Below are positions 2,215 to 20,549 of a stretch of DNA of 64,000 nt, piece after piece. This DNA is from Candidatus Gastranaerophilales bacterium (GTDB lineage: Bacteria > Cyanobacteriota > Vampirovibrionia > Gastranaerophilales > Gastranaerophilaceae): contig CALUQX010000001.1 of NCBI GenBank assembly GCA_944323045.1, positions 1-64,000 of the forward strand, read 5' to 3'. The notes beneath the pieces are model-generated. The model was not told the DNA's origin, did not search any database, and saw nothing but the letters and a program-made list of their open reading frames with translations. Position 1 is the stretch's first letter, and each line of letters starts with the position of its first letter. Both the position numbers and the translations under genes were made by a program.

Positions 2215-3141
2215 TTAAAAAACAATTTTTTTATTTAAATTTTTTACCATTTGGATATCATCTTCCGGAGCACTGCCTGTTGTGGTCAGGTAGTTACCTG
2301 TCATAATGCCTTCAACGCAGGATTTTAAAGCTTTTTCCTGATTTTTTTTAGACAATCTCATTCTGCCGCCACAAAAACGTAAAACAGATTTCGGGTTAGC
2401 AATTTTGAAAATTGCAAGCGTTCTCAGAACATTTTCTTCATCAATTTTGTTAAGAAAGTTTGCAAAAGGAGTTTCAGGTATCGGCATCAAAATATTAATA
2501 GGTATAGAATCCGGCTGAATTTCCGCAAGATTAAGTGCCATTTCCACGCGCTGTTCCACACTCTCGCCCATACCTAAAATAACGCCGCAGCACAATTCCA
2601 TACCGTATTTTTTAACAAGTTTACAGGTATTAACTCTGTCTTCAAAAGTATGAGTTGTGCACACTTCAGGATAGTATGAACGGCTGGTATTGATATTATG
2701 GTGAAAACGCTTTAATCCTGTTCCGGCAAGTCTTTCAGCCTGTTCTTCATTCAAAATACCAATAGATGCGCAGCTTTTTAATCCGTCAATATTATTAACT
2801 TCTTCAATCATTTTAAGGATTGTATCAAAGTCACTTTCGTCAGGCGTTTTACCGGAAGTAACTATTGCAAAGCGGCTTGCGTAGTGTTCTTTAGCGTCCA
2901 GTGCTGCATCTCTAACTGTTTCAAGGCTGACAAGCGGGTAAGATTCAATATTTGTACGATAATGGGAGCTTTGCGCACAGTATTTGCAATTTTGAGAGCA
3001 TTTGCCATTACGCGCATTAACAAGTGAGCAAAATTCAACAGAATTATTTATATAACCGGCTGAAATGCTTAAAAGTTCATCCAATTCCATATTGTATAAT
3101 TTAAGAAGTTCATCTTTGTCAATTTTTATTTGTGCCGGCAT
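2215..3141 (-). CDS. bioB: Biotin synthase
   Basis: Radical-SAM enzyme that inserts sulfur into dethiobiotin, the last step of biotin synthesis. The protein has 308 residues. The radical-SAM cluster motif CxxxCxxC is C48-C52-C55 (GKCSQNCKYCAQS). The usual BioB landmarks follow: SIGIL, HHNINTSR, SVPIN-like 'SIPINILMP' and a GGRMR segment near the end. By eye against E. coli BioB, the [2Fe-2S] ligand Cys97 is replaced (RFAIVTSGK instead of RFCMGAA), while counterparts of Cys128, Cys188 and Arg260 appear kept. That suggests an anaerobe-type variant of the sulfur-donating cluster. AGAGAGGAATAT precedes the start. No bioA, bioD or bioF is nearby; a BioY-like transporter gene lies at 35301-35960. 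Two palindromic sites lie 75-108 bp upstream. Confidence 0.95.
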   Translation of the reverse strand: MPAQIKIDKDELLKLYNMELDELLSISAGYINNSVEFCSLVNARNGKCSQNCKYCAQSSHYRTNIESYPLVSLETVRDAALDAKEHYASRFAIVTSGKTPDESDFDTILKMIEEVNNIDGLKSCASIGILNEEQAERLAGTGLKRFHHNINTSRSYYPEVCTTHTFEDRVNTCKLVKKYGMELCCGVILGMGESVEQRVEMALNLAEIQPDSIPINILMPIPETPFANFLNKIDEENVLRTLAIFKIANPKSVLRFCGGRMRLSKKNQEKALKSCVEGIMTGNYLTTTGSAPEDDIQMVKNLNKKIVF

Positions 3142-3215
3142 ATATTCCTCTCTTTAAAACCAATAGTAAAACATAATCAAGATAAAGTCAACAGTGCATT
3201 AATATTGACAAGTAA

Positions 3216-3249
3216 TCATTATATAGTGACTAAATTCATTATATAATGA
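3216..3249. promoter_or_regulatory. Pair of 14-bp palindromic operator-like sites upstream of bioB
   Basis: TCATTATATAGTGA (3216-3229) and the perfect palindrome TCATTATATAATGA (3236-3249) start 20 bp apart, about two helical turns. The same sequence recurs at 7826, 7891 and 8840, each time upstream of a minus-strand gene. This fits a shared dimeric regulator. The protein that binds is not known from the sequence. Confidence 0.6.
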
Positions 3250-3268
3250 TATTTATATCTACTTTTCC

Positions 3269-3592
3269 CTAATTAAATCTGCTGGCATATATAAAATTGT
3301 AAACATTGCGAATCTCTCTATCTGACATATTCTCAAGACTATTATATATGTATTCCTTCAAACTCTTAATATCCCTTAAATAATGATTTGTAAACAACTC
3401 TGCTATTTCAATATTAAAAATTTCTGCAAGTTTCTCAAGATTCTGCACAGTTGGAAATGTCTTACCACTTTCTATTCGAAGTATTGACTTGGCATTTATC
3501 CCTAGTTTTTCTGACAGCTGTTCCTGAGTCCAATTATTACTCTTTCTCAACTGTCTTATTTTTTTGCCAAGTAATATCTTCATTGAATCCAT
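3269..3592 (-). CDS. XRE-family helix-turn-helix regulator (pilin module A)
   Basis: Small regulator, 107 residues from the ATG at 3592, which has GGAG seven bases upstream; an in-frame ATG at 3610 lacks such a site. Residues about 9-65 form a Cro/CI-type HTH (KIRQLRKSNNWTQEQLSEKLG, then a recognition helix ending RIESGKTFP). The C-terminal 40 residues are helical and end with an IYNSL...NFIYASR tail. The architecture, HTH plus short helical tail, is shared with the XRE proteins at 12543, 34002, 46045, 51024 and 61119. It is divergent from the pseudopilin gene at 3747, with a 154-bp intergenic region holding inverted repeats. It is probably a local repressor of that pilin and of itself (inference). 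Confidence 0.85.
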   Translation of the reverse strand: MDSMKILLGKKIRQLRKSNNWTQEQLSEKLGINAKSILRIESGKTFPTVQNLEKLAEIFNIEIAELFTNHYLRDIKSLKEYIYNSLENMSDREIRNVYNFIYASRFN

Positions 3593-3679
3593 ATAACATC
3601 TCCGTTTCAATATTAATTTAATTGCAATGCATAAAAATTTAAATGTACTAAAATGTAACTTTTAATATATAAAAGTAAT

Positions 3680-3707
3680 TTGACATATAACATAAGTATG
3701 TTATTAT
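3680..3707 (+). promoter_or_regulatory. Promoter of pseudopilin A with dyads on it
   Basis: TTGACA (3680-3685), 16-bp spacer, TATTAT (3702-3707). The spacer holds the inverted repeat ATAACAT-AAGT-ATGTTAT (3687-3704). A second dyad, ACTTTTA-N5-TAAAAGT (3658-3676), lies just upstream. A dyad inside the spacer is a typical repressor position; the divergent XRE protein is the obvious candidate ligand. Confidence 0.6.
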
Positions 3708-3746
3708 GTTACTTGTAAGCATGAAACATAACACTGGAGGTAACTT

Positions 3747-4475
3747 ATGTTAAAACTAAAACTTAACAGTAAACATTTCGCTTTTACATTAGCCGAAGTG
3801 CTTATTACTCTTTCAATAATAGGCATTATAGCCGCAATTACGCTACCATCCGTAATATCAAGCTATAAAAAACGGGTCGTCCTGACAAAACTTCAAAAAT
3901 TTAATTATGTAATGAACAATGCAATAAAATTGTCATATATAGAAAACGGGAATTTTCTGAAAAATATGGAAGTTGTTGAGCCCAGTGAAGACAACCCTAC
4001 AGGATTTTCTTCACAAGAACAGGTAATCAGATTTATAGAAAAATATATTCTCAAATACATGAAATATGATAAAATCGCGAAGGTAGATTCAACTTCTGAT
4101 TTTAAATCACTTATAAGAGTCGACTTATTAGATGGCAGTATGTTTTTTATTAATGCAATACCGCAATCAAACTTTATACACATATGGTACTTAACAGACA
4201 ATAGATACAAGGAATATTGGGCAGATGAAAACCTTAGAGACGAGGTGCTTGGCAAATACAGTTTTATATTCTACACAGATGCAAATCATATAGATAAAGG
4301 GCAGGGCATGGTGCCATATGATAGCCTTTGGGATGGTACAAGAGAGGACTTATTTAATAATAGTTTATACGGATGTGCAAAATCAGCGGAAATAAATCAA
4401 CCAGGCGTATTTTGTACAAAATTAATCCAGTATGACGGCTGGAAAATCTCAAAGGATTATCCTGTTAAATTTTAA
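3747..4475 (+). CDS. Type IV pseudopilin-like protein, short form (module A)
   Basis: Prepilin-type protein of 242 residues. The 12-residue leader ends in Ala, followed by F-T-L-A-E (A12^F13, Glu at +5) and the hydrophobic helix VLITLSIIGIIAAITLP. That is a class-III signal for prepilin peptidase with Ala rather than the usual Gly at -1. The body is a mixed globular domain with two Cys near the C-terminus (GCAKSAE, VFCTK) and the ending GWKISKDYPVKF, closely matching the protein at 45147 (GWEIPDDYPLKF). CTGGAGG precedes the start. It converges on the response regulator gene with an 11-bp overlap. Its role could be in a type II secretion, type IV pilus or competence-like filament; no assembly genes are nearby. 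Confidence 0.85.
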   Translation: MLKLKLNSKHFAFTLAEVLITLSIIGIIAAITLPSVISSYKKRVVLTKLQKFNYVMNNAIKLSYIENGNFLKNMEVVEPSEDNPTGFSSQEQVIRFIEKYILKYMKYDKIAKVDSTSDFKSLIRVDLLDGSMFFINAIPQSNFIHIWYLTDNRYKEYWADENLRDEVLGKYSFIFYTDANHIDKGQGMVPYDSLWDGTREDLFNNSLYGCAKSAEINQPGVFCTKLIQYDGWKISKDYPVKF

Positions 4476-4839
4476 GAATATTATATGCATCAAGCGTTTT
4501 GCACATATATTTCGGAATACATTCTACATTATATTTTTCGGCAATTCGTTTTATATTACTCGTAGCTGAAATAATTACAATCCTGCTGTTCTTATATTCC
4601 TTAAACATCTGCACTTCGCGCACAAACCACTCACCTGCATAAAGCGGTAAAAAATCCGTTTCCATCTGCAAATCTGTCAAAATTATATCGTAAGGTTCAT
4701 CAATATTCGCCGTAATCCTTGCTATGCCTTCCTGTGCAGAATTCGCCGTATCAATCACACAATCTGCAAACAGTTCTTTGACTGCAAATGTGTGATAATT
4801 TATCCAGTTTTGTGAGTCATCAACAATTAAAATTTTCAT
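4465..4839 (-). CDS. Stand-alone response-regulator receiver protein
   Basis: CheY-like single-domain protein, 124 residues from MKILIVDDS. It has the acidic pair D7-D8, phospho-acceptor D56 (ILTDLQ), ISAT near 90-93 and the conserved Lys at K110 (CIPKY). There is no output domain, so it would act by protein contact. The longer start at 4857 would fall inside the terminator hairpin of the gene behind it, so 4839 is preferred. No Shine-Dalgarno is visible; the bases before ATG (TG-T-TATCTA-N6) look like a weak leaderless -10. The cognate kinase is unknown; the closest kinase gene is at 7035. Confidence 0.85.
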   Translation of the reverse strand: MKILIVDDSQNWINYHTFAVKELFADCVIDTANSAQEGIARITANIDEPYDIILTDLQMETDFLPLYAGEWFVREVQMFKEYKNSRIVIISATSNIKRIAEKYNVECIPKYMCKTLDAYNILKI

Positions 4840-4858
4840 AAATATTAGATAACACAAA

Positions 4859-4886
4859 GGCGCCCGAAACTCAAGTTTCGGGCGCC
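4859..4886 (-). terminator. Rho-independent terminator of the Hsp20-like gene
   Basis: A 28-bp perfect inverted repeat with 13-bp arms (GGCGCCCGAAACT) and a 2-base loop. On the minus strand it is followed by CTTTGTGTT. It sits 13 bp after the stop of the Hsp20-like gene and directly before the receiver gene. Confidence 0.8.
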
Positions 4887-4899
4887 TCCTAAAAACAAC

Positions 4900-5451
4900 T
4901 TATTTTATAATCGGTACAGTAATAATATACATATCACCTTTTTTGTTTTTGCTTATAGCATCAAAATCAACATTGTCATCAAAATCGTACTGTTGCATGA
5001 CTTTTATCATCTTATCGTGATGCTTTGTTGAAGATTCACCTGCGGCGGTCACTGTCAGCGTATCTCCGTCTGTTGAGACTTCAACATTCTTCTCATTGTT
5101 GTCAAATGGTCTCAAATTTACAATAATCTCGTAAGCATCGCCCTTCTTTTCCAGATGAATATAATTTTCGCTCTCTTCACCAAGACGCATGCCTCTTTCA
5201 ATGTTCTTTCTATACATTCTCTCCATTTGGCGGTGTTCACGCATCATATTCTTTTCAAATCTGCGCATCTGTACAGCAGGATCCATCATCCGTTTGAAAT
5301 GCCAATCCGTAACAGTATAAAAAGCTAAATAAGCCCCCAAAAATACCATTAAAGCCGTCAAAATATGCTTTAACACAGGGTGATGGCACAGCCAGCAGTC
5401 GTCGTAATGATGATGCTGCTCGCGGTTTTCGTAATTGTTGTTTTCATCCAT
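4900..5451 (-). CDS. Membrane-anchored Hsp20/alpha-crystallin-like protein
   Basis: 183 residues. A short His/Cys-containing cytosolic start (EQHHHYDDCWLCHH) is followed by one membrane segment at about 28-48, then a charged Met/Arg-rich helix (about 55-95). The C-terminal beta-domain (YEIIVNLRPFD..NVEVSTDGDTLTVTA) has the pattern of small heat-shock protein domains. Most Hsp20 proteins are soluble, so the membrane anchor and coiled linker are unusual. It could guard envelope-associated proteins or serve as an assembly factor; the fold call is moderate and the role is inferred. The gene is a single unit, ended by the hairpin at 4859. Confidence 0.6.
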   Translation of the reverse strand: MDENNNYENREQHHHYDDCWLCHHPVLKHILTALMVFLGAYLAFYTVTDWHFKRMMDPAVQMRRFEKNMMREHRQMERMYRKNIERGMRLGEESENYIHLEKKGDAYEIIVNLRPFDNNEKNVEVSTDGDTLTVTAAGESSTKHHDKMIKVMQQYDFDDNVDFDAISKNKKGDMYIITVPIIK

Positions 5452-5506
5452 AGTTAAAAACTCCTTTCTTATTTTCTACATTTTTATATTATGCAATAAA
5501 TTAGAC

Positions 5507-5535
5507 TTGTCTATAGCTCTTTTGTATGTTATACT
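5507..5535 (+). promoter_or_regulatory. Promoter of the RHH gene
   Basis: TTGTCT (5507-5512), 17-bp spacer, TATACT (5530-5535) with an extended TG. AAGGAG follows ten bases before the ATG at 5558, so this gene has a short conventional leader. Confidence 0.6.
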
Positions 5536-5557
5536 GTTAAAAAAAGGAGTAGGTAAA

Positions 5558-5746
5558 ATGGCGAAGGTTTTAGTTTCAATGTCAGATGACTTTCTAAATA
5601 AAATTGATAGTGTTGCAAGCAATGAGCAACGCACCAGAAGCGAACTTATCAGAGAAGCTCTGCGCACTTACATCAGACGCAACACTGTACTTAACCCGCA
5701 AAGGGCTGAAAATAACGCCAAAATCCTTGAACAAATGATGGATTAG
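5558..5746 (+). CDS. Ribbon-helix-helix (CopG/Arc-like) DNA-binding protein
   Basis: 62 residues: MAKVLVSMSDDFLNKIDSVA, then a helix with TRSELIREALRTYIRR. This is the classic RHH layout: a beta-strand at the N-terminus for DNA contact and two helices for dimerisation. The start at 5558 is chosen because AAGGAG lies just upstream; the open frame further up is not preceded by a ribosome site. Such proteins often act as antitoxins or small repressors, but no toxin gene lies next to it. The gene downstream is convergent and overlaps by 4 bp. Confidence 0.85.
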   Translation: MAKVLVSMSDDFLNKIDSVASNEQRTRSELIREALRTYIRRNTVLNPQRAENNAKILEQMMD

Positions 5747-7047
5747 GCATTATTCTCTTTTATAAACATATCAACCCACTTTATTAAGCCCGAAACATCA
5801 TAAGGTTTTGGCAGGTATAAATCTGCACCGGAATTGAGTATTAACTCCTTGTCATGGATAATTGATGTTACAATCAGCTTTGTCCGGCTAAATTTTTGCT
5901 CTTGTTTTATTCTCCGGCACAATTCCAGCCCCTTTAAATCCTCCACTCTGCCTGCATCCATTATGATTATTGCCGGTTCATATTCCAAATCCGACAAATC
6001 ATCTTCTTTTTCTAAAATCTCAACATCATATCCCTGAAGTTTCAAAATTGTTGTAAGCAAAAGTTTCATTGCCTCATCAGGCTCTGCAACAAGTACATGT
6101 TTATTGTATGTGTTTATGTCAACAGAATCTTCTGCACTTATTTGCGGGCGCTCAATCAAATAATTAGATTTGTCCGGCAAATCAGCCATTTTATTAATTT
6201 GATACAACGCATTTGTAAGCTGATTGGCATCTTTATATTGAACAAATTCATTTGTGACAATGCCTATTGTTGTGTGTACAAAATTTGAACGTCTGCCGGC
6301 ATACTCGTCCCCTCTCATCAACATATATCCGCGTCTATTGTCCTGAGAAGAATAAAACTTTGACGCAACCGAATCAAACGCAAATACCAGAAAATTAGCT
6401 ATTTTTTCCGCCTTTAACGGGTCTGTAATCACCAGAAACTGATTTTCCGAAACAGCCCCCAGATAATCGTTTTCACTCAATGATGAATTGATTATTGCAC
6501 AATATGTCTGCAAAAGCTTATCAGATGCCAGTTCTGTATAAGTTTCTTTGTAATTTTGAAAATTTTCCACACTAATCAAAAGGCTTGCCCACAGATTATT
6601 CTGGTTTAATATACGTTTTATTGCGCGCAGTGAATAATTTCTGCCCGGGATAAAACGTTTTGCATCAAGATTTGACTCGTATTCTCTGCGAAGATGCGCC
6701 TTCATTCGTATGGAAAACTCTTCCGGATTAACAGGCTCACTAATAAAATCGTCAGCACCGCTTTCCAAAACTTTTATTCTGTCTGCAAGCTCGGCGGATT
6801 TTGAAGTCGCAACAATCACCGGACGCATGTTGTAGGTCAAAGCGCGAATTTTCCTGCAGTAATCAGCAAGTTCACCTTCATTACTGTCAGAAATTATAAT
6901 CAAATCCGGTTCGAGCTCCTGGATGGTTTTCATTGCGGATATAAGATTTTTTGACACATAACAGGTGTTGCTTTTACTGTTCAATAATTTTTTATATTTA
7001 GTCGACAGCTCTCTGCGTCTGTCAATAATAAGTGTTACTGCCTGCAT
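5743..7047 (-). CDS. Receiver - degenerate GGDEF - receiver protein
   Basis: 434 residues. The first receiver domain (about 4-120) keeps the phosphorylatable Asp (D54, IIISDS) but has Glu at the usual Lys position (FISEP). The middle (about 130-300) follows the GGDEF diguanylate cyclase pattern, but the signature reads SENQF, so catalysis is unlikely. The second receiver (about 315-434) keeps Asp (IIMDAG) and Lys (LPKPYD). It is therefore probably a signal-integrating scaffold that may bind but not make c-di-GMP. It is cotranscribed with the kinase gene upstream (13-bp overlap), which suggests that kinase phosphorylates it. Confidence 0.85.
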   Translation of the reverse strand: MQAVTLIIDRRRELSTKYKKLLNSKSNTCYVSKNLISAMKTIQELEPDLIIISDSNEGELADYCRKIRALTYNMRPVIVATSKSAELADRIKVLESGADDFISEPVNPEEFSIRMKAHLRREYESNLDAKRFIPGRNYSLRAIKRILNQNNLWASLLISVENFQNYKETYTELASDKLLQTYCAIINSSLSENDYLGAVSENQFLVITDPLKAEKIANFLVFAFDSVASKFYSSQDNRRGYMLMRGDEYAGRRSNFVHTTIGIVTNEFVQYKDANQLTNALYQINKMADLPDKSNYLIERPQISAEDSVDINTYNKHVLVAEPDEAMKLLLTTILKLQGYDVEILEKEDDLSDLEYEPAIIIMDAGRVEDLKGLELCRRIKQEQKFSRTKLIVTSIIHDKELILNSGADLYLPKPYDVSGLIKWVDMFIKENNA

Positions 7048-7763
7048 TTTGCTCTCGCCTGCCTTTCAATATCTGCAGAGGGCAAAAGCACCTCAAAAGT
7101 TGTCATACCGTCATTTGAAGATACAGAAATTTTTCCGTCCATTTTTTCAACCAGTGTTTTTGTGATAAAAAGTCCAAGCCCGCTTCCCTGAACCTTACGG
7201 GTCAAAGGGTTGTCAAGACGCGAAAATTTCGTAAATATCTTATCGTAATCTTCTTGCTTTATGCCTATCCCTTTATCAATTACACGGATAGGTATATAGT
7301 CGCAATTATCGCAAAATCCTGTTTCAATAGTGATAGTGGAATTCTCATCGGAGTATTTTGCGGCATTCTCTATTAAATTTGTCATTACCTGAAAAAATTT
7401 ATCTTTATCAGCTAGAATTTTAGAATTTTTATCATTAATATTTATGGAAAAATTACGATTATGATACTGATTTTTGACAATAGAAACAACCGTTTCTATA
7501 ACAGGTTTTATTGCGACACCGGTTAAAATAAGGTCATCTTTTGCCGATTGTAGTCTGGTTACAGAAAGCATATTTTCAACGAGATTAATCAACCTGTTAG
7601 ACTGCTCTTCAATAATTTTCACGAACTTTTTTTTGCTGTCATCATCAAGTTTATCCCATGAGGCGAGCATTGTCTGAGCAAAGCCTCTTATAGAAGTCAG
7701 CGGAGTTCGCAATTCGTGACTAACAGTAGAAATAAAATCGTTTTTATCATCATTAATAGTCAT
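7035..7763 (-). CDS. Soluble sensor histidine kinase
   Basis: 242 residues: a dimerisation/H-box domain with His16 in SHELRTPLTS, then an HATPase domain with N-box (TNLIENAAKYS, 128-138), G1 (DKGIGI, 163-168) and G2 (GSGLGL, 193-198). No membrane segment and no sensory domain precede the H-box, so input must come from a partner protein. The start codon lies six bases after a TATAAT box, with no ribosome site. It overlaps the receiver-GGDEF-receiver gene by 13 bp, forming a two-component operon. Two palindromic sites lie upstream at 7826 and 7891. Confidence 0.92.
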   Translation of the reverse strand: MTINDDKNDFISTVSHELRTPLTSIRGFAQTMLASWDKLDDDSKKKFVKIIEEQSNRLINLVENMLSVTRLQSAKDDLILTGVAIKPVIETVVSIVKNQYHNRNFSININDKNSKILADKDKFFQVMTNLIENAAKYSDENSTITIETGFCDNCDYIPIRVIDKGIGIKQEDYDKIFTKFSRLDNPLTRKVQGSGLGLFITKTLVEKMDGKISVSSNDGMTTFEVLLPSADIERQARAKCRQ

Positions 7764-7769
7764 ACTATA

Positions 7770-7798
7770 ATTATAGCATATTTAATAAAATTTCACAA
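7770..7798 (-). promoter_or_regulatory. Leaderless promoter of the histidine kinase operon
   Basis: On the minus strand: TTGTGA (7798-7793), 17-bp spacer, TATAAT (7775-7770), with an extended TGC before it, then six bases and ATG at 7763. The expected transcription start is the A of the ATG or within a base or two. Confidence 0.7.
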
Positions 7799-7825
7799 TA
7801 CATTAACATAATATCAAACATATAT

Positions 7826-7904
7826 TCATTATATAGTGACTATTTTTACAATTAAAATTCGATTAATTAACCAAACATTAGAATTTGCATTCATTATATA
7901 ATGA
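7826..7904. promoter_or_regulatory. Two palindromic sites upstream of the kinase operon
   Basis: TCATTATATAGTGA at 7826-7839 and the perfect palindrome TCATTATATAATGA at 7891-7904. They have the same sequence and order as the pair upstream of bioB, here 65 bp apart. Confidence 0.6.
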
Positions 7905-7940
7905 CATTTAGTTTAATATTATCTTAATTTGTGTTTGCAA

Positions 7941-8726
7941 TTACTCAAATCGCAAATTCCTGTTGTACAAACTGTCTATCAACTGCGCGATGTTTTCTTT
8001 TTCCTGTTCTGACTGGTATTTGGGAGCAACTTTAGTCTCTATTATTTTGTCATGTTTGTCAAACCGTGTGAATTGTTTCCACTCTCCATTTTTAGGATTG
8101 TAGTCATGGATTTCCCTTACGGTCTTGCCGTCTCTGTAAAAATACGTTGTTTTAGCCGGTTTGCCGTTTTTTGAGTTGTACTCAGATACTGAACTCACAG
8201 TCTGACTCTCTCTAAAACTTGTCCAGCGGATTACAGCCTCTGTTTTTGGATTTATTTCCTTTATTGTACTTATTGTCTGACCGTCACGGCGATACAGGGT
8301 AACTTTCTTGATTTTTCCGGTCTCCAAATCGTATTCCTGAATGGATGTAACTCTGTTTTCATTGCGAATATCATAGTTGATTGTACGTATTCTTTTGCCG
8401 CTGTCTACATCGAATTCGTCAATTGATTTATATAAAATATAATTAATTGTCCTGAATTTTTGTCCTGTATGCGGTACAAATTCATCTATAGCACGGATTT
8501 TTTCATTGTTAAAATAGTCATAATGCACTACCCGCAATTTGTCTCCTGTACTGGCATCATACTCGATTATCCTGTCAATAGAGAGTTTGTTACGTCTGTA
8601 AATTATCTCTTTTCTGATGTCAGGCATTGGCAGTTTTTCGATATCTACCGGTGCAATATTATTGTCTGCTTTGCCTTTATTCACAAGTTTTACAGGTAAC
8701 TTTTCCGCTAAAATAAGTGCATTCAT
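7941..8726 (-). CDS. Tandem repeat protein resembling DUF2963 of phytoplasmas
   Basis: 261 residues from the ATG at 8726, which has GAGGAG upstream; the ATG at 8756 lacks a ribosome site. From about residue 50 the protein is built of roughly eight 20-22-residue units with consensus I-x-E-Y-D/N-x-x-T/N-G-K-x-x-K/R-x-x-x-Y/F-x-x-D-G (for example IQEYDLETGKIKKVTLYRRDG). This is the pattern I recall for DUF2963 repeats, also reminiscent of MORN or YD-type repeats. There is no signal peptide and no membrane segment. It is probably an elongated beta-repeat scaffold; the function is unknown. A copy of the TCAyTATATArTGA site lies upstream. Confidence 0.7.
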   Translation of the reverse strand: MNALILAEKLPVKLVNKGKADNNIAPVDIEKLPMPDIRKEIIYRRNKLSIDRIIEYDASTGDKLRVVHYDYFNNEKIRAIDEFVPHTGQKFRTINYILYKSIDEFDVDSGKRIRTINYDIRNENRVTSIQEYDLETGKIKKVTLYRRDGQTISTIKEINPKTEAVIRWTSFRESQTVSSVSEYNSKNGKPAKTTYFYRDGKTVREIHDYNPKNGEWKQFTRFDKHDKIIETKVAPKYQSEQEKENIAQLIDSLYNRNLRFE

Positions 8727-8839
8727 GATAATTCTCCTCTTATGCTCTATTTTCATTTTGGAAGAATTATAGCAAGGGCAAAAAAACGAATATATAAGAC
8801 ATTAGGGCAATATTTTAATTAATCAATAGTGTAATATAG

Positions 8840-8853
8840 TCATTATATAGTGA
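8840..8853. promoter_or_regulatory. Palindromic site between the HxlR gene and the repeat-protein gene
   Basis: TCATTATATAGTGA lies immediately after the HxlR stop codon, in the upstream region of the repeat-protein gene (start 8726). It is the fifth copy of the motif in 5.7 kb; I noticed no further copy elsewhere in the window. Confidence 0.55.
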
Positions 8854-9198
8854 TTACTTATTTAATTTATTGATAAGTTTAAGATAATCTTTGTAATCAG
8901 TTCCCCAACTCGCCATAGAATTCAATACCGGCATCAAACTGTATCCTACATCTGTCAGAGTGTATTCAACACGCGGCGGCACCTGCGGATAAATCTTTCG
9001 TTCAACAAGTCCGTCATTTTCCAGCGAACGTAAGTTACTCGTCAAAACCTTTTGTGAAATACCGGTTACAGATTTTTTCAACTCACCAAATCTTTTTGTA
9101 CCAGTCAATAAATCCCGTATTATTAATGCTTTCCACTTATCACCAATAAGCTTTAGAGTAGTTTCAACCGGACACGGCGGCAAATCTTTTAACTCCAT
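8854..9198 (-). CDS. HxlR-family transcriptional regulator
   Basis: 114 residues with the winged-helix pattern of the family: CPVETTLKLIGDKWKALIIRDLLTG, then RFGELKKSVTGISQKVLTSNLRSLENDGLV and the wing PPRVEYTLTDVG. Cys9 sits at the position of the redox-sensing cysteine of HypR/YodB-type members, so a thiol or electrophile response is possible. A ribosome site (GAGGG) precedes the start. It is divergent from the acetyltransferase gene at 9297. It is the nearest candidate to bind the palindrome that follows its stop codon, but that link is only inference. Confidence 0.92.
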   Translation of the reverse strand: MELKDLPPCPVETTLKLIGDKWKALIIRDLLTGTKRFGELKKSVTGISQKVLTSNLRSLENDGLVERKIYPQVPPRVEYTLTDVGYSLMPVLNSMASWGTDYKDYLKLINKLNK

Positions 9199-9261
9199 AT
9201 ATCCCTCTCATTTCTACATTAGTATCTTATGTATACTTACTTTATAATTTATACAACAGAC

Positions 9262-19611: not shown

Positions 19612-20549
19612 AATACACTTTCAATTCTGCCGACGACTTCTCCGTGCAGAGTCTGTATGTCATGTGAAACATCAATATCAGCCCAGTGCAGATTTTTCAA
19701 TGCGTCAAGGGTAACTATTTCCCGTGCTTTCATGTCGCAGTCAGAAATTTTTACAATCATTGCCTCTTCTTTTTCAAGATTAACGACAATACACAAGCCG
19801 CCCGCCCCGACTTTTGCAACTAAATTTTCGGAATTCTCCATTATTTTTGTGTCAAGTCTGTTTTCGCCGCCAATTATGTACGGATGATTTAAGAATGCAT
19901 TTTTTATTTTTGCATATTTTGGATCAGTAAACAGATTTAAATATCCGGCAAGCATATTTTTTAATGGCATAGACATAATAGGAACACCACAGCCGTCTTT
20001 TGTCACAGGGTATTCTTTGTTGACTTTGCATAACTCATAAATTTTTTCCTTTATTGCAAGTTGAAGCGGATGCTCCGGATGGTCATAAGTTTGCAGACCC
20101 CAGTTTTTTACTTTGCATATCGCAAGCATCATTATATGTTTGCCGACACAGTTGTTGTGGAAAATCGTTTCTCGTTTATTAGCAAGAAGTAATTTTTCCT
20201 GTTCTTTTTGAGAGATTGGTTTGTGATATCCGCATTTCAGATAACTTTCATCCAGCCCGATTTTTTCAAGAAATTTTTTTGCAGTGTTTACGTGTAACTC
20301 TTCACCGGCATGAGAGGCGCAGCACAAGGCAATTTCTTCGGAGGTCAAATCAAAATACTTATCCACACCATAGTCTATAATCAAACTCGCCTGCAGGGGT
20401 TTTGCGCAGGAACGCAGATAAAACGGGGCATCTTTAGAATCTCCGTGGCTGTCTATAACACGTGTTTTGTCACTAACCATAAGGTATCCGTAATGTTCCT
20501 GTTCAACAAGTCCGTCACGTATATATTTAATCAATATCTCCGCTGTCAT
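19608..20549 (-). CDS. L-asparaginase II-like protein
   Basis: 313 residues, asparaginase II family (the Rhizobium etli AnsA type, unrelated to the E. coli enzymes). Seen motifs: LRSCAKPLQASLII, EEIALCCASHAGEE, NNCVGKHIMML, DGCGVPIMSMPL. The Ser/Cys-Lys arrangement in SCAKP and the NNC-GKH motif are family hallmarks. Predicted reaction: asparagine to aspartate and ammonia, in the cytoplasm. It overlaps the upstream MshEN-like gene by 23 bp and converges on the hydrolase gene. Confidence 0.85.
   Translation of the reverse strand: MTAEILIKYIRDGLVEQEHYGYLMVSDKTRVIDSHGDSKDAPFYLRSCAKPLQASLIIDYGVDKYFDLTSEEIALCCASHAGEELHVNTAKKFLEKIGLDESYLKCGYHKPISQKEQEKLLLANKRETIFHNNCVGKHIMMLAICKVKNWGLQTYDHPEHPLQLAIKEKIYELCKVNKEYPVTKDGCGVPIMSMPLKNMLAGYLNLFTDPKYAKIKNAFLNHPYIIGGENRLDTKIMENSENLVAKVGAGGLCIVVNLEKEEAMIVKISDCDMKAREIVTLDALKNLHWADIDVSHDIQTLHGEVVGRIESVF

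Follow-up and report, generated by a model that had tools for sequence, protein, structure and literature searches.

The window, by which we mean the whole 64,000-nucleotide stretch of DNA that was analyzed, comes from the genome of a Candidatus Gastranaerophilales bacterium (G000; 1.98-Mb assembly). Near its start, a run of minus-strand genes is punctuated by copies of a short palindrome: hxlR is followed by one site, the DUF2963 repeat-protein gene by two, and the kinase and REC-GGDEF-REC genes, farther along, by two more in front of bioB. The features of this run are given below; the binding sites are listed without a strand.

2215–3141, minus strand: bioB, biotin synthase (TIGR00433), putative target
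3163–3191, minus strand: predicted bioB promoter, TTGACT-N17-TACTAT (consensus match), 24 bp downstream of the operator pair
3216–3229: predicted operator TCATTATATAGTGA, proximal member of the bioB pair (sequence match)
3236–3249: predicted operator TCATTATATAATGA, distal member of the bioB pair; the pair spacing is kept in five genomes
5743–7047, minus strand: REC-GGDEF-REC response regulator, second gene of the kinase operon (domain search)
7035–7763, minus strand: histidine kinase without a sensor domain (HisKA and HATPase_c), putative target operon
7770–7798, minus strand: predicted kinase promoter, TTGTGA-N17-TATAAT (consensus match), 27 bp downstream of the 7826 operator
7826–7839: predicted operator TCATTATATAGTGA, upstream of the kinase operon; without a counterpart in congeners
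7891–7904: predicted operator TCATTATATAATGA, just 3′ of the DUF2963 gene; kept in all five congeners
7941–8756, minus strand: DUF2963 repeat-protein gene (PF11178), putative target; congener alignment suggests a start codon at 8726
8840–8853: predicted operator TCATTATATAGTGA, directly 3′ of the hxlR stop codon; kept in all five congeners
8854–9198, minus strand: HxlR-family regulator (PF01638)
9219–9239: presumed own operator of HxlR, TTAGTAT-N7-ATACTTA, in the hxlR promoter; kept in the genus and partly beyond

The two members of the bioB pair are separated by a 6-bp spacer and lie 20 bp apart, center to center. A similar predicted promoter (TTGACA-N17-TACTCT) is found in the congener G004. 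Elsewhere in this part of the window, positions 1–2130 cover the beginning of a long minus-strand gene with internal repeats, whose product resembles a repeat protein that is secreted or exposed at the surface, and a strong intrinsic terminator hairpin of 15 pairs (4856–4889) lies between the Hsp20-like and response-regulator genes.

The 14-base palindrome TCAYTATATARTGA occurs exactly five times in the assembly by whole-assembly pattern search, and all five copies are intergenic and confined to 5.6 kb; under a first-order Markov model, 0.075 (~0.07) exact copies would be expected in a genome. The same search returned no one-mismatch copy. When up to two mismatches are allowed, the window contains seven sites, compared with 1.48 ± 1.12 expected, and none of 100 shuffles reached seven. 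Across the whole genome, two-mismatch copies are near background (61, vs. 50 for the reversed-pattern control; these genome-wide counts are all pattern searches). The original prediction had placed five copies upstream of bioB, the kinase operon, and the repeat-protein gene, and had called two of them perfect palindromes. The letters of the window agree at every copy: the perfect palindromes are those at 3236 and 7891, and all five sites are intergenic at the places named. Scanning this genome, as had been proposed, revealed only the five clustered copies and no random scatter including coding regions. The prediction also noted that the variants follow the same order in both pairs. That order is real in the window, but the choices of C or T are not kept in congeners, so it carries no weight.

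All five congeners (G001–G005) carry exact copies of the palindrome in the same gene block. A site lies directly 3′ of the hxlR stop codon in six of six genomes (G000–G005), and another lies between the DUF2963 gene and the next unit in all five congeners, the G002 copy with one mismatch. That next unit is the kinase gene itself in the window and two congeners, and a nitrilase-like gene followed by the kinase gene in the other three (G001, G004, and G005), where the site lies ∼12 nt from the start codon of the nitrilase-like gene. The bioB pair, with its 6-bp spacer, is present in five genomes (G000 and G001–G004); in G005, other genes precede bioB and the pair is gone. Pairwise column identity at the sites on the two flanks of the DUF2963 gene is 94–95%, compared with 65% and 33% in neighboring columns, and at bioB it is 82% within the sites vs. 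20% outside them. Among the 23 sites compared, the outer TCA and TGA are best conserved and the fourth position (C or T) is least conserved. Judged from these alignments, the pattern is the one expected of an operator that a symmetric protein dimer recognizes. The proposal of a local regulon under a single dimeric regulator is supported, as the sites are kept in five congeners while the flanking DNA diverges. A literature search with TCATTATATAATGA found no match. The nitrilase-like gene occupies L029:10500–11315, L032:11401–12215, and L033:7734–8579; it is missing at the kinase locus in the window's genome, G002, and G003, and in G004 its frame appears to be split into two ORFs.

A candidate for the regulator lies outside the window. 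We searched 59 genomes for the paired form of the site (TCA-N2-W4-N2-TGA, N6, repeated), and outside the genus this yielded two perfect pairs, both in G026. One of them lies in the promoter of a gene for a 78-aa helix-rich, HTH-like protein, divergent from rimO. The other (L224:7141–7174, equivalent to G026:C5:22140–22173) is located between convergent genes and is not an obvious promoter. In G014, a single exact site occupies the promoter of the orthologous gene, also beside rimO. A profile made from the G026 and G014 proteins identified strong orthologs (>130 bits) in exactly 8 of the 59 genomes, namely, G000–G005, G026, and G014, and the next match scored 85 bits. In the window's genome, the ortholog is a 77-aa protein encoded on the minus strand of contig G000:C36 at about 3204–3437, again divergent from rimO.

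We describe this protein as Cro-like rather than as a proven XRE member, because it has no Pfam match of its own, the HTH_26 match belongs to distant members of the family, and the predicted fold is weak. None of the G026, G014, and G000 candidate proteins has a Pfam HTH match. The distant member L249 matches PF13443 (HTH_26, Cro/C1-type) at 4.5e-7 (30.5 bits, cutoff 22), L251 scores 23.2 bits against the same model, and 7 of 22 family members match it at E 0.05 or better; hhalign finds L249 homologous to the candidate group at 98% probability. Structure prediction of one paralog, run without an alignment, gave four helices, weakly (pLDDT 59). Profile comparison with local XRE proteins was also weak (5.6% probability). 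Searches of the PDB returned nothing meaningful, no relatives of the candidate were found in viral contigs, and phage records gave three weak tblastn matches only. The candidate is too small to contain a ligand domain.

The link between this protein and the palindrome was followed across 383 family genomes by seeking the exact motif and inspecting every match outside the genus. There are 50 such matches, 9 of which lie 43–57 bp before the start codon of an ortholog of the candidate gene. These nine belong to genera g7, g10, and g22, and eight of the nine genomes are new, having played no part in forming the hypothesis. Among the remaining matches, 28 fall inside ORFs of at least 100 codons and 13 elsewhere, including 2 that form longer, perfect hairpins with a T run behind them and hence are probable terminators. 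Counting the G026 pair, ten genomes from three other genera have the operator in the ortholog's own promoter; the co-occurrence as a whole is to be read as that of a few independent lineages only (g1, g7, g10, and g22). Each of the ten regulators outside the genus has R-N-L-Y in its recognition helix and is encoded divergently from rimO. The regulator's promoter in g7 and g22 has the arrangement TCA..TGA-N6-TCA..TGA, which is the spacing of the bioB pair, and its second site extends into a −35 element resembling TTGA(A/T) (promoter read by eye).

At 49 further family loci, TMAYTATATARTKA with no more than one mismatch occurs within 130 bp upstream in 9 cases, compared with 0.57 expected. In a sister group with the helix motif E-N-L-T, a TAA-N8-TTA site is present in six of eight members and starts exactly at −69; several of them have a second TAA-type site 21 bp on, and two ENLT paralogs (L235 and L240) have no clear site. 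In effect, RNLY proteins pair with TCA-N8-TGA and ENLT proteins pair with TAA-N8-TTA. The change from E to R in the helix tracks the change from A to C in the operator, as would be expected if the arginine reads the G of TGA. Three TAA-type paralogs (L165:2990–3040, L270, and L242) have three operators before their own gene, at −69, at −48, and, more weakly, at about −18. Such three-site promoters are reminiscent of lambda OR, and both activation and repression are possible there. A distant paralog, L263, has TCACTATATAGTGT close upstream of its gene (G002:C31, about 19688–19701).

We consider it highly probable, from comparative sequence evidence, that a single homodimeric regulator uses all five palindromes as its operators; the most likely one is the 77-aa Cro/C1-like protein of contig G000:C36. 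A dimer would read TCA and TGA in major grooves separated by one helical turn, with the bendable TATATA center between them. At bioB, the 20-bp spacing would place two dimers next to each other on the same face of the helix, where binding is probably cooperative. In related genera, the overlap of the downstream site with the predicted −35 element of the regulator's gene probably serves negative autoregulation. In the window's genus, where the site in the regulator's own promoter is missing, the protein would control bioB, the (nitrilase)-kinase-response-regulator operon, and the DUF2963 gene. Binding, dimerization, cooperativity, and the sign of control are what we infer from these arrangements, and repression seems somewhat more likely than activation. 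The sites 24 and 27 bp upstream of the predicted bioB and kinase promoters are in a position that also fits activation, and the site just before the nitrilase-like start codon in G001, G004, and G005 fits repression better. A broader reading, which we favor with less assurance, is that the Gastranaerophilales possess a family of very small Cro-like repressors, most of them unannotated, with a specificity code (RNLY with TCA-N8-TGA and ENLT with TAA-N8-TTA), and that in one genus the regulon was rewired with DNA specificity unchanged, the operator having disappeared from the promoter of the regulator's gene and arisen at the bioB/two-component/DUF2963 cluster.

Several other explanations deserve consideration. 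The strongest of them is that another unlinked regulator binds the sites and that the motif occurs at the gene of the Cro-like protein by chance. The palindrome is absent from the regulator's own promoter in all six orthologs of the window's genus, and the genome encodes further small paralogs of the family. Because the own promoter has no site and the gene is unlinked to the cluster, the assignment within the genus rests on orthology and the conserved recognition helix. Against coincidence stand the nine exact promoter matches and the G026 pair, all at orthologs with the same recognition helix, and the covariation of operator and helix within the family. On balance, we regard a different regulator as unlikely.

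Less probable still is the original prediction's candidate, the adjacent HxlR protein, as the regulator that binds the palindromes and controls its neighbors. The hxlR gene does abut one site, and in several genera it is linked to DUF2963 and often to bioB. However, its promoter carries a distinct gapped repeat, TTAGTAT-N7-ATACTAA, which is conserved in the genus and whose right half is conserved further out. Half-sites are 14 bp apart in that repeat vs. 7 bp in the palindrome, and the same dimer should not fit both. YodB, a member of the HxlR family, prefers a gapped palindrome, TACT-N7-AGTA (PMC8063818). The repeat in the hxlR promoter agrees with this type, which speaks against HxlR acting on the 14-bp sites. 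No gapped inverted repeat of the family type was found at the bioB, kinase, and DUF2963 sites, which are ungapped 14-bp palindromes. Nor does the palindrome travel with HxlR orthologs: it is absent in a sister genus (L160–L167) whose HxlR is 77–81% identical and lies beside DUF2963 and mostly bioB, it was not found in G011 and G015, where HxlR also lies beside DUF2963, and the G026 HxlR locus has only a two-mismatch copy. This part of the prediction was therefore abandoned.

It is hardly plausible that the sites are promoter −10 elements rather than operators. TATAAT does lie inside each site in the direction of the gene, and the ∼12-nt distance to a start codon in three congeners would suit such a reading. 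Yet it is the whole 14-bp palindrome that is conserved, outer TCA and TGA most of all, no conserved −35 element accompanies the sites, and separate promoters are predicted downstream at bioB and at the kinase gene; an operator may nonetheless overlap a −10 element. Finally, we give almost no credence to the sites acting in RNA (as a hairpin, terminator, or processing signal) or being a short dispersed repeat: they often lie close behind a stop codon and the bioB pair can fold as RNA, but a single site has no folding advantage over shuffled sequence, sense-strand variants (TCAC..ATGA, for example) disrupt the hairpin, the sites lack a trailing T tract, and nothing is dispersed in a genome with five exact copies only.

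Other regulators and known boxes were rejected. The XRE protein encoded at 3269–3610 is found here only in G000 and G004, and the bioB pair exists without it. Its gene and a divergent pilin-like gene (3269–4475) are inserted between the response-regulator gene and bioB in those two genomes only; at other loci, similar XRE/pilin-like pairs enclose a different palindrome of their own. The ribbon-helix-helix protein encoded at 5555–5746 (62 aa) is a family-wide core protein, tied to the GGDEF response regulator in genera that lack the motif. A genome contains up to four copies of it, and across the order three are usual; its gene often adjoins the REC-GGDEF-REC response-regulator gene. An FNR/CRP-like reading of the TGA-N6-TCA center of the bioB pair fails since single palindromes stand alone elsewhere. 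An NrdR box, which is 16 bp long with a longer core, is an unlikely match: its spacing differs, and no nrd gene is involved.

The assignment of the palindromes to the Cro-like protein may be relevant in several respects. First, it would link a regulator, its operator, and its targets in an uncultured order for which a literature search found no described regulon, and it would draw attention to a DNA-binding family missed by Pfam. Second, an operator sequence kept across genera while its targets change would be a clean example of such rewiring. Third, the covariation of helix and operator makes specificity directly testable by single-residue swaps. Finally, it corrects the guess that a neighboring regulator must be the binder. 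What is already known is the kind of system, a small HTH protein with palindromic operators; what is new is the regulator family and its operator, together with their connection to the present cluster of genes and what appears to be a rewiring within one genus.

It remains to place this system among known ones. The HxlR/DUF24 redox regulators (YodB and QsrR) resemble it in that a member with a single Cys near its N terminus is encoded beside one operator; they differ in having gapped operators, and hxlR here has a gapped one in its own promoter rather than the 14-bp palindrome. Biotin regulons are known under BirA, BioR, and BioQ, with which the present system shares bioB as a predicted target. 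Unlike those regulons, its sites are not confined to biotin genes: one of the three target units is a biotin gene, the two others are not, and there are only five sites in the genome. Also close are Cro/C1-type (XRE) HTH regulators with tandem operators, such as lambda CI and Cro and the 434 repressor. Shared with these are the small size of the protein (four helices are weakly predicted for one paralog, at pLDDT 59), 14-bp palindromic operators whose outer contact triplets are separated by one turn, a distance of about two turns between tandem sites, overlap of an operator with the predicted −35 element of the regulator's gene, and, in the TAA-type sister group, a third, weaker site near −18. 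In contrast to them, the candidate has no Pfam match and no extra ligand or cleavage domain, and it is encoded by a chromosomal gene beside rimO whose predicted targets here are bioB, the kinase operon, and the DUF2963 gene.
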